Part shown: positions 45,007 through 50,348 of the stretch, piece after piece
How the letters are laid out: every line of letters starts with the position of its first letter
How positions within the stretch are numbered: position 1 is the first letter of the stretch
Assembly (NCBI RefSeq): GCF_011064595.1
Contig: NZ_JAALJI010000003.1
Coordinates: forward strand, 310,001-374,000
DNA from: Paludisphaera soli
Lineage (GTDB): Bacteria > Planctomycetota > Planctomycetia > Isosphaerales > Isosphaeraceae
Direction: 5' to 3'
Length of the DNA: 64,000 nucleotides
Notes under the pieces: generated by a model
The model's input: the letters and a program-made list of their open reading frames with translations, nothing else
Told to the model about the DNA's origin: nothing
The model's database searches: none
Made by a program: the position numbers and the translations under genes

Positions 45007-46608
45007 CTAGAAGGATTCGATCGGCAGGACGAAGTCCGAGGCCACCCGCGGGGTCGAACTCCCGGGGACGTAAAGGAAATTGACATACCTCCGTTGCCGG
45101 GTCTCCAGGAAGATCCACTGCAGAATCACCCGCCCCTTCGTGGCGATGATGGTCCGGGAGGTCGGCTCGACGCCGAGGACGGCCCGGACTTCGGGCGGGG
45201 TCTTGCCTCGCAAGCCCTGGTCGCCCTCGACGGGCGGGCTCGTCGGCTGAGCGGAGGCCTGGGCGGGGGCGTCCTTCACCCACTCGTCGCCCGCGAGTCG
45301 GTAGCCGCGGAGCTTGAACGCCTCCGTCACCTCGGCGGAGCCGGGGGCGATCTTCCAGGCCCTTTCCAGGAGCTGCCGGGACTGCTCCGAGTCGCGCAGA
45401 AGTTCCTCGTATTGCCCGGCCAGCGCAACCGGGCCCTCGGCGTCTGTGTCGCGGAGCCGATCGCGTTGCGCTTTGAGCCAGTCTCGATACAGCTCGATCG
45501 CGCCATCGGGGTCCTTCGCCCGGTCGGAGAGCAAGGCGCCGATGGTCTTGACCTCGGCGAGACGCAAAGACGGCAGGTTCGCGGCGGCCCTCTCGCGCAC
45601 CTGACCGATCAGCCTGGCGGCGAGCTGGGGACGGTCCGGCACGAGATCGCCTGCCCTGTCGACCACGCGCAAGGCCGACTGGACGTCCTGGACGACCTGA
45701 AGTTCGAGCGACCGCTCGACGACGTCCGCCCAAAGTTCGCGGTCCATGGACGTGCGGACTTCGGGCGTCGCGGCCCGATAGCTCCCGGCCGGGTCCTGAG
45801 CGTAACGGTCACGCCACGAGGCGACGTCCGCTCCCCCTGCCGCGAGGGGCTGTGCGGAGGCCGGGAAAAACCGCTCGACCTCGGTTTTGAGCGATTCCAG
45901 GCCAGCGGGCGAGTTCGCGGCAGCCAGCATGGAACGGAAGGCGCGATGGGCCAGCGCCGAGGGTTCCGGCTCGGCGACGCCTCGTTTGCGGCCGTCCTGG
46001 GCCAGATTCAGCCATTCCCCGGGGGCGTCCACCGTGACCCGCTGGGCGTCGGCCTGGATCTGCAGGGCCTCGACCTCGACCGCCCCGGCCCGGCGTGCGA
46101 GTTCCTTGTCGCCGAAGTCGCGGGCCCGCTTCGAGGCCCATTGCACCCACGATCGCCTTTGGGCGAAGTCTCGCGCCGGGAGCGCGGCGACGGCCTTGTC
46201 GAACCGCTCCACGTCCGCCGGCTGGAGGCTCAGGGATGTCGCGTCCAGGTGGAGTCGCGTGCCTTCGCGGGTCAGGCGGCCCTGGACCACGACGGCCGGG
46301 TTGCGGGGCGGGGACTCCGGCCGCAGCTCCTCAGGGAGGCGGACGGCGAGGGGCGTGCGCTTCAGGTAAAGCTCGTCGAACCCGACCTTGGGATGGTGCT
46401 GGAAGAACTTGATCCGGTCGTCGACGACCACGAGCTTACCCACCAGATCCTCCCTGCGAGTCAGCTCGGCCGGCTCCACGGGGACGGGAGCTTCCTGCCG
46501 GCCGCTCGCCTCGCCCGTGAGGCCCGCGCCCAGCAGCAAGGCCAGGGCCGCGGCCAGGCCCCGGGCGTCGGAAGCGAATCGGAAACGCCCCAGCGTGATC
46601 GTGGTCAT
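45007..46608 (-). CDS. Exported protein of unknown function, 533 residues
   Basis: The ATG at 46608 overlaps the stop of the upstream gene (TGATG); a GTG one codon earlier would give a GTGA overlap. A signal peptide is likely (residues 15-37, Ala/Leu/Gly-rich, 'GEASGRQ'). The N-terminal third is beta-rich with 'GKLVVVDDRIKFFQHH', suggestive of an OB-like or SLA1-homology fold; the middle is helical and TPR-like ('EQSRQLLERAWKIAPGSAEVTEAFKLRG'-type order near 405-432). The C-terminus has 'VILQWIFLETRQRRYVNF'. No enzyme motif. Translational coupling points to a shared job with the zinc-ribbon protein upstream. Function unknown. Confidence 0.68.
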   Translation of the reverse strand: MTTITLGRFRFASDARGLAAALALLLGAGLTGEASGRQEAPVPVEPAELTRREDLVGKLVVVDDRIKFFQHHPKVGFDELYLKRTPLAVRLPEELRPESPPRNPAVVVQGRLTREGTRLHLDATSLSLQPADVERFDKAVAALPARDFAQRRSWVQWASKRARDFGDKELARRAGAVEVEALQIQADAQRVTVDAPGEWLNLAQDGRKRGVAEPEPSALAHRAFRSMLAAANSPAGLESLKTEVERFFPASAQPLAAGGADVASWRDRYAQDPAGSYRAATPEVRTSMDRELWADVVERSLELQVVQDVQSALRVVDRAGDLVPDRPQLAARLIGQVRERAAANLPSLRLAEVKTIGALLSDRAKDPDGAIELYRDWLKAQRDRLRDTDAEGPVALAGQYEELLRDSEQSRQLLERAWKIAPGSAEVTEAFKLRGYRLAGDEWVKDAPAQASAQPTSPPVEGDQGLRGKTPPEVRAVLGVEPTSRTIIATKGRVILQWIFLETRQRRYVNFLYVPGSSTPRVASDFVLPIESF

Positions 46609-47921
46609 CACTCGTCTCCGATTTCGGGGGCGGGGGCCGGTTCGATCGCATCGGGCCAGCCGAGCGACTCCAGGGCTTCGTGGAACTGGACGAAGAGGCC
46701 GCTGTCGGGCTCCAGGCGAACGACCCAGGCGTTCTTCGCGGCGTCGAACTCGAGGGCGGCGAGCCGGGCCCCGAAGACGACGTGGTCGCCGACCTTGGGG
46801 CGGGCGAGATCGAAGAGCTGGAAGCCCTCGAAGTCGATCCGGGCCGACCGTTCAGGGCGGGCCCCCCCCGCGCGGAAGCTACCGGCGTCGGCCGTGGGGA
46901 GGACGACGTAGTCGATCTCGTAGCGTTTCTCCGGGCTTTCGGGCGTCGCCTTGATCCGCGAGTCGAACACGACGCCCCGGCCTCGATGCTGGTCGTCGAA
47001 CCGGGAGGCCCAGGACTTGGGGTTGGTCCTGGCCGCCTCGTCAAGCAGCTCCTCGAGGCCGGCGTTCGAGAGGTTGACGTAGAGCGAGGCCTCGTCGGCG
47101 GCCTGGCGGATCCGATCGGCACCTTCCACCTCGCCGCCAAGGGTATCGACCGCTTGCTTGGCGGGGGCGAGGAGCTGATAGGCCTTGTCGAAGTCGCCGG
47201 CCTCCAGCGCGGGGATCCCCTCGACGCGGCCCAGCTCGGCGACCTGGGGCAGCCCCTGGAGGTGGATCCGCCAGGCTCGATAGGCGACCGTCGCCACGAC
47301 GAGCAGGGAGACGACCGCGAAGAGCCGCAAGGGCCGCCACGCGGAGCGGCGTCGGCCCCTGGGCTCGATCTCGACCACGGGACGGCTCGGGGAATCGCGT
47401 CTGGCTCGGGCCGCCGGGGCCGCTTCGCTCAGCACCGCGGGCTCGACGACTCGCGACGGGCGGCGGCGTGGCGCCTTCGCCGCGGGTCGGGCCCTGGCGG
47501 GGCTCGAGGCCGCCTCCTCGTCGACGGGGTCGACGCCGCGATCGGGCGAGGCCGCCTCGTCTTCCCAGGAAATCTCGGCGTCCGGGTGGGGGATCGCGTC
47601 GGCGATCTCGACCGTGACCTCGTCCGCGTCGTTCAGCTCGATCGGCCCTTCCTCGATCGCCCGGGGCGGCGAATAGGACTCGGTCGACCTGCCACGCCCC
47701 GTCGTCGTCGAGATCCGCGGCCCGGGGTCCGGCAGCGGGCTGACGGGCAGCACGAACACGCCCTCGCCGCAGGCCGGGCAACGGAGCGCCTGATAGCCTT
47801 CGGTTCGCTGGCCGCGAACGCGATGTCCAAGCGGGCACACCACGTTGAAATACTGGACCTCGGCCTCCGACGTCGTCGCCAGGCCCTTGATCAAGTTCCT
47901 CGCTCGGCCGAAGAGACCCAA
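46608..47921 (-). CDS. Zinc-ribbon, single-pass membrane protein
   Basis: Probably 437 residues, read from TTG 47921, which follows a GAGG site by six bases; the frame stays open to a TTG at 48050, but that part is unlike protein. An N-terminal zinc-ribbon-like motif ('VVCPLGHRVRG' then 'LRCPACGEGVF') is followed by an acidic, then Arg/Pro-rich linker (about 70-200), one transmembrane helix ('LFAVVSLLVVATVAYRAW') and a C-terminal domain of about 210 residues, helical then beta-rich. It resembles other planctomycete membrane proteins with cytosolic zinc fingers. Coupled to the downstream gene. Function unknown. Confidence 0.62.
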   Translation of the reverse strand: MGLFGRARNLIKGLATTSEAEVQYFNVVCPLGHRVRGQRTEGYQALRCPACGEGVFVLPVSPLPDPGPRISTTTGRGRSTESYSPPRAIEEGPIELNDADEVTVEIADAIPHPDAEISWEDEAASPDRGVDPVDEEAASSPARARPAAKAPRRRPSRVVEPAVLSEAAPAARARRDSPSRPVVEIEPRGRRRSAWRPLRLFAVVSLLVVATVAYRAWRIHLQGLPQVAELGRVEGIPALEAGDFDKAYQLLAPAKQAVDTLGGEVEGADRIRQAADEASLYVNLSNAGLEELLDEAARTNPKSWASRFDDQHRGRGVVFDSRIKATPESPEKRYEIDYVVLPTADAGSFRAGGARPERSARIDFEGFQLFDLARPKVGDHVVFGARLAALEFDAAKNAWVVRLEPDSGLFVQFHEALESLGWPDAIEPAPAPEIGDE

Positions 47922-48150
47922 AGACCACCTCTTCCCCGCCGAACCGCGACGCGGTGCGGTCGATCGACGACCAACCTGGCGGGGTTCGAACCATGACGAC
48001 CGTAAGACAGGCGTTTCTCGAATTATGGAGACCTGTGCGTCGAACGTCAACGATCCGCGCCCCTTGCCGGCAACCGGGCTGGAAAGCGAACGGGCCGCGG
48101 CCTCTGGCGAGGCGACGACCCGTCGTGGAGGGAATCGTGCGGAGTCGTGA

Positions 48151-48807
48151 TCAGTAGCGGAGGATCGCCGCCAGTCCGGTCTCCGTCGGCATCCGATCGG
48201 GGGGCACGACCACCACCTCGCCCTTCATGCGAAGGACGCCCTCGGCCAGGTCGTCGATCAGGTCGTCGATCAGGTCGTCGACACCGGGGTCGTCGATCGA
48301 GTGGGCCTTCTGGATCTTGCCGTTCTCCAGCTCGAGCTTCCCGGGGACGACGCGATCGGCCTCGACGAGCAGCGTGGCGATGCGGCCGGCCGCCGCTTCG
48401 CGGGCCGCCTCGGCCAGCTTGCTCACGGCCTTGCCCGCCGCCTGGGCGGCCTGAAATCGCTCGCTTAACATGGAAGCTCCGCCACCACCGGTTCCGCGAC
48501 CGGCCGTTGGAGCTGATAGTCGTGAAAGGCGTCGGCCGAGCGGAACAGCGCCAGGCCGTCCTGTTGATGGGTCCAGAACTGGTAATCGTCGAGCAGCCGG
48601 CGGCATCGGCTCCAGCAGGGCGTCGACCTCGCGTGCCGGATGCTTCTCGCTGAACGATCGCTCGGCGCGGGTCAGGAGGTTCTTGTAGCGGATCAAATCC
48701 TGGCCGTTCTCGGGATTCGCGCGGTGAGTCGGCTCTTACAGCGACACGACTGGCGCCGCGACGGGTCCCAGAAGTCCCCGGAGGTCCTCCGTCGTGATGT
48801 GGGGCAT
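48151..48807 (-). pseudogene. Decayed BaeRF family 3 (eRF1-like) gene
   Basis: Three pieces of one BaeRF3 protein lie in order on the minus strand. Piece 1 starts at ATG 48807 ('MPHITTEDLRGLL') and is cut by TAA at 48738-48736, exactly where the family has a Tyr before 'PTH'; the frame then goes on with 'EPTHRANPENGQDLIRYKNLL'. Piece 2 ('LLDDYQFWTHQQDGLALFRS') is in another frame, so a frameshift lies near 48590-48605; it ends at 48465. Piece 3 (48471-48151) is the family C-terminus ('ATLLVEADRVVPGKLE' to 'VVVVPPDRMPTETGLAAILRY'). About 200 residues between pieces 2 and 3 are missing. Piece 3 has an ATG and could still be made. Confidence 0.78.
48247..48282. repeat. 12-base tandem repeat, three copies
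   Basis: CAGGTCGTCGAT is repeated three times in phase (48247-48258, 48259-48270, 48271-48282, the last ending in C). On the minus strand it encodes repeated 'DDLI' in the C-terminal remnant of the BaeRF3 gene. Confidence 0.7.
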
Positions 48808-48889
48808 TCGCATTCTCCGGATCAAGATTCACGGTCTGTCGGAGAATGAGAAGCAACTCTGGGACCGGGCTCGATCGTGGCGGATTCGA

Positions 48890-49279
48890 TCAGCCGCGGG
48901 TGATCGCCTCGAACAAATCGTCCGGGCAATGCTCGTCGAAGCGGACGCGGACGAAGTGCCCCCCGTCGCCCGTCGGCGAGACCTCCAACACCTCGCCCAC
49001 GGCGCAGTCGGAGGGGGCGGCCTTCGCCGCCTTGAGCCAGACCTCGTCCCCCGGCGCGGGGGGAGTGGGGGTCAAGATGCGGGCGCCCCCCCGACTGAGG
49101 TTGAGGACCAGCGAGCCGACCGTCGCGAACTCCGACTCCGAAGCCCACCAGCCGAGCCAGGTCCGGCCGTCGACCGCCGGCAGCCTGGGCTCGGCGCGAC
49201 GTTCCAGCGAGATGTGCGGACCCCGCCCGCGGCTCGGGCCCGACACCATGCGCCTCTCGGTCGACCTGTCGAGCTTCAT
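48890..49279 (-). CDS. PilZ domain protein
   Basis: A 129-residue single PilZ domain. The c-di-GMP motifs are present: 'RRAEPR' (residues 27-32, R-x-x-x-R) and 'NLSRGGARI' (residues 60-68, N-x-S-x-x-G). It should bind c-di-GMP and signal to motility, adhesion or matrix production. ATG 49279 has GGAGGG eight bases upstream; an in-frame TTG 15 bases earlier is less likely. Confidence 0.82.
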   Translation of the reverse strand: MKLDRSTERRMVSGPSRGRGPHISLERRAEPRLPAVDGRTWLGWWASESEFATVGSLVLNLSRGGARILTPTPPAPGDEVWLKAAKAAPSDCAVGEVLEVSPTGDGGHFVRVRFDEHCPDDLFEAITRG

Positions 49280-49480
49280 CGTGCGACCCTCCAATCCTGG
49301 ACGCCGGCTATCCCGGAGCCGTCGAGGGCGAGGACCGGACCCGCCCCGGCTCCCCGCCCCTCTCTTCGCAACCCTAGGGTGCGGTTCGGGGGCGGGACGG
49401 CCGCGTTGAGAATAAACACGATCCGTCGCCCGACGTCACCCGTCGCACCGCGGCGACCGGGCGGCCTTGGAGGCGAGAGG

Positions 49481-49843
49481 TCAGGCCCGGAGCGTCTCCA
49501 TGGAAGTCCTCAGGTCGCGGTCGACGCCGAAGAGTCGGTCGAGGTTCGAGGTCCGGAAGACCTGCTGGAGCACGGGGGACAGCTCGCAGAGTCGGAGCTT
49601 GCCGTGGGTGCCGTCGACCCGGCGCTGGAGGAGGATGAGCTTGCTCAGGAGGGTGCTGGAGATCAGGCCGACGTCGCTGAAGTCCAGGACGAGTCGGATC
49701 GGCTTGCCGTCGTTGGGGAGGTTTGCGGCGATCTGCTCGGCCGCTTCGCGCACGGTCCGCTCGTCGAACAGCTGGCGGTCGTGGAAGCGGACGACCTTGA
49801 CCCCGTCGACCTCCGTCATGCTGATCCGGTCTGCTGGAGGCAT
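49481..49843 (-). CDS. STAS domain anti-sigma factor antagonist
   Basis: A 120-residue STAS protein. The phosphorylation-loop region reads 'DFSDVGLISSTLLSKL', keeping the Ser-Ser-Thr cluster of SpoIIAA/RsbV-type antagonists. The start ATG 49843 is preceded by AGGA. It lies 19 bases downstream of a second STAS gene on the same strand, so both are likely made together; no anti-sigma kinase gene is next to them. Confidence 0.85.
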   Translation of the reverse strand: MPPADRISMTEVDGVKVVRFHDRQLFDERTVREAAEQIAANLPNDGKPIRLVLDFSDVGLISSTLLSKLILLQRRVDGTHGKLRLCELSPVLQQVFRTSNLDRLFGVDRDLRTSMETLRA

Positions 49844-49862
49844 TTTACTGATCCTGTGAAGA

Positions 49863-50348
49863 TCATTCGGGTTCGGTTGCGGATCTCTTGCGGCGGAGGC
49901 GACCGAGACGGTCCGAGGCCGGCCCGGCCGGACGAGGGCGGTTCGATTCGACTTCGGCCGTAGGCTCGGACCTGGAGGAGGTCTCGGGCTCCCCCCTCTC
50001 GATCGCCGCGAGCGCGGCATCGCGATCGACGAGGAACTCGAAGAGCTTGTCGAGCTTGCTCGCGCGGAAGACTTCGGCGACCGTGGGTTCGACGTGGCAG
50101 AAGACCACGCGGCCCCCATTCTGCCTGGCGCTCCGGTGGAGTGCCACGAAATTCCCGAGCGCCGCCGAACCGGCGAAGCCGACCCCCGCCAGGTCGATCA
50201 CCACGAACGGCCGGCCTTTCGCCTTGAGATGCTCGTCGTACCGATGCCGAAGTTCCAGGGCGGGCGCCGGGTCCAGCCGGAGGCAGTCCCAGAACTCCGC
50301 CAGGAGCACGCCGTCCACGTTATGGACCTGAACGGTTGGCTTCAACAT
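49863..50348 (-). CDS. STAS domain protein with basic C-terminal tail
   Basis: A 161-residue protein: a STAS domain (residues 1-115) with the loop 'DLAGVGFAGSAALGNF', retaining one Ser, and a 40-residue Arg/Glu/Pro tail that is probably disordered. Paired with the following STAS gene. The two differ at the switch site, so they may bind different partners or one may be non-phosphorylatable. Confidence 0.82.
   Translation of the reverse strand: MLKPTVQVHNVDGVLLAEFWDCLRLDPAPALELRHRYDEHLKAKGRPFVVIDLAGVGFAGSAALGNFVALHRSARQNGGRVVFCHVEPTVAEVFRASKLDKLFEFLVDRDAALAAIERGEPETSSRSEPTAEVESNRPRPAGPASDRLGRLRRKRSATEPE

Follow-up and report, generated by a model that had tools for sequence, protein, structure and literature searches.

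Does the stretch at 48807-48151 on the minus strand of the window, the 64,000-nucleotide piece of the Paludisphaera soli genome analysed here, hold a working gene, a dead gene, or a dead gene with one part still in use? We conclude that this locus is very probably an ordinary pseudogene, a no longer working member of the Balon-like (BaeRF family 3) genes for ribosome hibernation factors. Elsewhere, such a protein makes ribosomes dormant under stress.

Layout and lesions of the remnant

When compared with intact BaeRF_family3 genes from related bacteria, the remnant aligned as three pieces that lie in two frames. Its features are as follows.

48607-48807, minus strand: N-terminal part, 67 codons, with the start codon at 48807 and a TAA at 48738-48736
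48603-48606, minus strand: first frame change, placed by tblastn and alignment
48477-48602, minus strand: remainder of the N-terminal domain in the shifted frame, placed by tblastn and alignment
48455-48478, minus strand: site of the second frame change, where the ends of the large deletion are joined, with an ATG (48471-48469) out of frame relative to the old FHVK codons
48151-48471, minus strand: C-terminal part, open for 106 codons and ending at the usual C-terminus of the family; predicted Balon-like C-terminal domain
48247-48281, minus strand: in-frame 12-base tandem repeat of 2.9 perfect copies, which adds four residues compared with nine aligned relatives
48811-48848, minus strand: old ribosome-binding-site region and an inverted partner upstream, with 9-base arms, the second arm being the ribosome-binding-site region

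Reading from the remnant start, we found 23 residues, then the TAA at codon 24, and then the continuation of the N-terminal domain. The first-pass annotation, made from the letters alone, had described the remains of a BaeRF3 gene that carries a nonsense mutation, a frameshift and a deletion, and the tblastn pieces, the PF18845 relatives and the alignment all agree with that description. The stop that it placed at an N-terminal Tyr corresponds to Tyr in 80 of the 86 copies aligned, and the frameshift that it placed near 48595 maps close by, at 48603-48606. Our analysis added a further frame change at about 48476, the 12-base repeat, the link to the Balon family and the emptiness of the site in four of five congeners.

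The annotation had also proposed an alignment with the family as a check of homology, and tblastn matched the relatives in frames -2 and -3. The C-terminal piece was matched by all ten relatives at about 48468-48154 in frame -2 (E 1e-18 to 4e-24). In the N-terminal region, five of the ten (L005, L007, L009, L010, L014) matched both frame -2 (about 48783-48607) and frame -3 (48602-48477) at E 7e-10 or better. Three others (L008, L011, L013) matched both frames, at least one of the two weakly (E 5e-4 to 0.08), while L006 matched frame -2 only and L012 frame -3 only. A family-profile search of the genome found the three remnant pieces at 1.2e-33, 8.9e-14 and 1.9e-8. These matches show homology of the remnant to intact Balon / BaeRF family 3 members. 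Compared with those homologues, it carries several disabling lesions, as a pseudogene does, and the three-domain architecture in one frame is absent.

The motif GGAGAAT stands before the remnant start; it also occurs in L008, L010 and L012 among eight relatives shown. A candidate start-site hairpin at 48811-48848 was set aside because it folds no better than shuffled sequences (z-score -0.73). A consensus scan found no promoter or terminator pattern.

Loss of the middle domain

The loss of the middle third, already claimed in the annotation, was confirmed. The gap between the N- and C-terminal parts corresponds to a median of 172 missing residues (range 153-189) in comparison with 85 intact copies, and the same figures were obtained with 86. 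Relative to L007, the deletion spans residues 127-298, and the PF18845 stretch spans 143-327, so that 156 of its 185 residues fall inside the deletion and very little of the middle domain is left. Relative to the model of L072, counterparts of residues 23-132 and 306-405 are kept and 133-305 are gone.

A Pfam scan of the three remnant stretches outside the N-terminal 67 codons gave no match. Since PF18845 covers mainly the deleted part, this is the expected outcome; the remnant has no PF18845 match above the cut-off, and three intact relatives used as a positive control pass it. The stop and the frame change break the N-terminal domain, and the deletion removes nearly all of the middle domain. 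With lesions in both domains, no protein that blocks the A site can be made.

Relationship to Balon

To which family did the gene belong? The three intact relatives matched PF18845 (BaeRF family 3) at 4e-39 to 1.1e-47. Intact relatives also passed the cut-offs of families 6, 7, 8 and 11 at lower scores, family 3 being the best. The N- and C-terminal parts of the remnant are homologous to intact members of family 3, but most of the Pfam domain is deleted and the remnant cannot be translated as one protein.

A profile built from 31 intact relatives matched Balon (8rd8_B) with an E value of 1.6e-36 over positions 8-383 of 383, and the family profile of the C-terminal part matched the same chain at 1.3e-7. 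The single surviving C-terminal piece gave E 0.66 against 8rd8_B by sequence. The model of the intact relative L072 (mean pLDDT 83.8) had Balon chains as its three best fold matches, and the C-terminal piece itself was predicted at a mean pLDDT of 89 from a 40-row alignment, with Balon 8rdw_B as its best fold match (TM-score 0.80 by query length). The Balon link is therefore drawn from the family profiles and the predicted fold. In the sequence library, chain B of 8rd8, 8rdv and 8rdw carries the molecule name 'Methyl-accepting chemotaxis protein'; despite this label, the fold search gives the 8rd8_B entry as Balon on the ribosome.

Balon is described as a ribosome hibernation factor of Psychrobacter urativorans that occupies the A site together with EF-Tu (PMC10901736). 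Its N-terminal domain is assigned to the decoding centre and its middle domain to the peptidyl-transferase centre, and its C-terminal domain contacts EF-Tu (PMC10901736). According to the same source, Balon occurs in about 20% of representative bacteria; it carries a slight cost when growth is good and is of benefit early in recovery (PMC10901736). The baeRF clade is reported to have spread widely via lateral transfer; the phrase 'family 3' is absent from the main text of that report (PMC6514570). By their resemblance to Balon, the intact relatives would act as ribosome hibernation factors.

Compared with Balon (8rd8, 8rdv, 8rdw), the family of the remnant is alike in its full-length profile match and in the predicted C-terminal-domain fold of the surviving piece, but the middle domain of the remnant is nearly gone and its N-terminal domain is broken. 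At the position that would correspond in our alignment to the HP motif of Balon, the remnant has NP. Of the intact copies, that of G025 likewise reads NP, and that of G003 reads FP. The model of the C-terminal piece has strands at 43-47 and 52-55, which may be equivalent to the beta-hairpin described for Balon. On this model, the piece appears to be a C-terminal domain with a beta-hairpin insertion, as in Balon. In our literature search, no paper was found on Balon pseudogenes in ribosome hibernation or on planctomycete Balon hibernation.

Origin of the gene

The remnant lies between the gene at 46608-48050 and the PilZ gene at 48890-49294. In four of five congeners, the counterparts of these genes are adjacent and the site is empty, with 133-289 bases between the matches compared with 842 here. 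In the fifth congener (G003), the two counterparts lie apart. Two of the five congeners (G002 and G003) carry an intact copy, 398 codons long in one open frame and 477 in the other, both at other places in their genomes. When 45 genomes of the taxonomic family were searched with the C-part profile, 11 had a match, the remnant included, and two of the 11 matches were weak.

In a tree of 40 of 87 rows, picked by hand and including L056, the remnant paired with the copy of G025, which belongs to another genus of the same taxonomic family, with a support of 97/90. The FastTree support for this pair was 0.94 with all rows and 0.83 without the faulty L056 row. The AU test on the same 40 rows gave p values of 0.038 against a clade with both congeners' copies, 0.012 against a clade with G003 alone and 0.064 against a clade with G002 alone, the last not being rejected. 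In the C-terminal part alone, the remnant differed less from the copy of G017 than from that of G025.

Window genes were compared with the 16-kb neighbourhoods of eight intact copies, and no match was found; this comparison took in 20 window frames picked by a script and, with a threshold of E 1e-3, the PilZ gene, one STAS gene and five other window genes. Taken together, the empty site in four of five congeners and the grouping with a copy from another genus suggest that lateral arrival of the gene before its death is likely, though not proven, on evidence of about 210 columns.

A different origin would be vertical: the ancestor would already have had the gene at this site, the congeners would have lost it, and the remnant would be all that is left of that inheritance. 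We consider this rather unlikely. The clade with the G002 copy stands unrejected at 0.05 in the AU test, as this origin would allow. Against it stand the empty sites, the location of both intact congener copies elsewhere, the lack of any match between the tested window genes and the eight neighbourhoods, and the pairing with G025. It concerns only where the gene came from and is compatible with a dead gene.

Two further ideas about the surroundings were set aside. The first was a stress operon: ten neighbours in five intact-copy neighbourhoods were enzymes, repeat-domain proteins, DUF proteins and one protein without a match, with no HPF or Hsp20 among them. The second was a match over 55 bases between the remnant and the G001 flanking gene (E 2e-5), which was taken as chance. 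Beside the site, the PilZ gene and two STAS-domain genes lie side by side at 48890-50348 on the minus strand. The counterpart of the gene 46608-48050 in congener G005 (L044) has one TGA inside.

Fate of the C-terminal piece

The annotation had noted that the C-terminus stays translatable with an ATG of its own, and the frame is indeed open from 48471 to 48151 for 106 codons; the same frame is open further upstream of the ATG, for 194 codons in all. Its suggestion that a small protein may still be made from this piece found no support.

If it did persist, the 106 residues would form a free small protein with the Balon C-terminal fold that could touch EF-Tu or the ribosome. Such a protein would accord with the ATG-started open frame and a GGCGGAG stretch just upstream, with 106 codons free of stops and with the confidently predicted fold. 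However, the ATG straddles codons that read FHVK in the old frame, and it is thus a by-product of the deletion join. The four extra residues from the 12-base repeat lie beside a conserved helix. Given two lesions in 327 bases of the N-terminal part, zero lesions in the 318 bases of the C-terminal part has a chance of about 0.14. Among the 80 other loci listed, there was one closed-end copy consisting of the C-terminal part only (L067), and it is itself a remnant; four more loci are truncated at contig ends.

Selection on the two parts was compared through the end branch of the remnant, with the topology fixed to that of FastTree. This branch measured 0.52 in the N-terminal part and 0.76 in the C-terminal part, and the N/C ratio of 0.69 was ordinary (median 0.82, rank 43 of 66 end branches). 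In the C-terminal part, it was the fifth longest of 86. The same test with L056 kept gave rank 39 of 66, a median of 0.76 and sixth place of 87. The C-terminal part therefore evolves no slower than the dead N-terminal part.

At columns conserved in at least 90% of copies, the remnant was changed at 3 of 13 in the N-terminal part, in addition to the stop, and at only 2 of 19 in the C-terminal part, which speaks for the small protein. As many breaks as in the remnant were seen in 5 of 85 copies for the N-terminal part and in 14 of 85 for the C-terminal part. These columns lean slightly, and weakly, towards better preservation of the C-terminal part. The codon-position differences between the remnant and ten copies were like those among the ten, in both parts. 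On this scale, the gene thus seems to have died recently, and little can be read from the intact appearance of the C-terminal part. Overall, we regard a persisting small protein as very unlikely. Slightly less probable still is that a free-standing Balon C-terminal domain, given a start of its own by the deletion, is still made and acts on EF-Tu or the ribosome while leaving the A site unblocked.

Least probable of all is a working gene misread through sequencing or assembly error: the genome is a draft of 197 contigs and the lesions were read from the assembly, but there are several separate differences, single-base errors would hardly explain about 172 missing codons, and the remnant lies inside a contig of 394,590 bases between flanking genes that match their congener counterparts.

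We also observed that 48154-48268 has 83% DNA identity over 115 bases to L099, from a Trueperaceae MAG of another phylum. This was the best-scoring DNA match to the remnant among the 86 coding sequences compared, from the matches listed.

Search for other copies and HPF/RaiA-type genes

An intact copy elsewhere in the genome, which the annotation had suggested looking for, was not found: two whole-genome searches (intact protein and family profile, E up to 1) returned only pieces of the remnant locus. Elsewhere in the genome, there was a weak PF18845 match (17.1 bits, below the 31.5 cut-off) and two weak matches to the C-terminal piece (E 0.05 and 0.3). In each of the six genus genomes examined, two HPF/RaiA-type matches exceeded the family cut-off. 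With two such genes, hibernation by that route probably remains.

The history of the dead gene would be as follows. It would have arrived laterally and been dispensable in a genome that still has two HPF/RaiA-type genes; its death would be recent compared with its separation from the intact relatives, the C-terminal open frame being a leftover. Within one genus, a gene of the Balon kind is thus present, absent and broken, and it is intact in two of five congeners at other places. This pattern fits published reports that such a gene costs little in rich growth and that its clade has spread laterally.

Broken copies among the relatives

The relatives were taken from 96 loci among the matches listed of a public-genome scan. 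Ten were left out (L058, L060, L066, L067, L079, L086, L100, L103, L111, L129) and 86 were kept. L060, L066, L103 and L111 were excluded as having a stop inside; the stop actually precedes the start codon, and they were still left out. L079, L086, L100 and L129 are partial and cut by contig ends. L056 has a frame change before the C-terminal part; it was dropped, and the branch test, column counts and missing length were redone with 85 copies, with results that agree.

Among the matches listed, the 80 other loci contained three further broken-looking copies (L067, L058 and L056). L067 (3800-4300, Rhodopirellula sp. SM50) is a separate remnant. Like the window remnant, it retains the start and the C-terminal part (131 residues) and has lost the middle, but its break points are different, which suggests an independent event. 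Short 'BaeRF' open frames can therefore be remnants, and this should serve as a warning.

In L056 (Ottowia beijingensis), the frame changes at about 4004, between the middle and C-terminal parts, reflecting either a broken gene or a sequencing error. L058 (3460-4300) is a copy without the N-terminal domain, located just behind the end of an apparent membrane transporter gene, which we take by eye to be NhaA-like.
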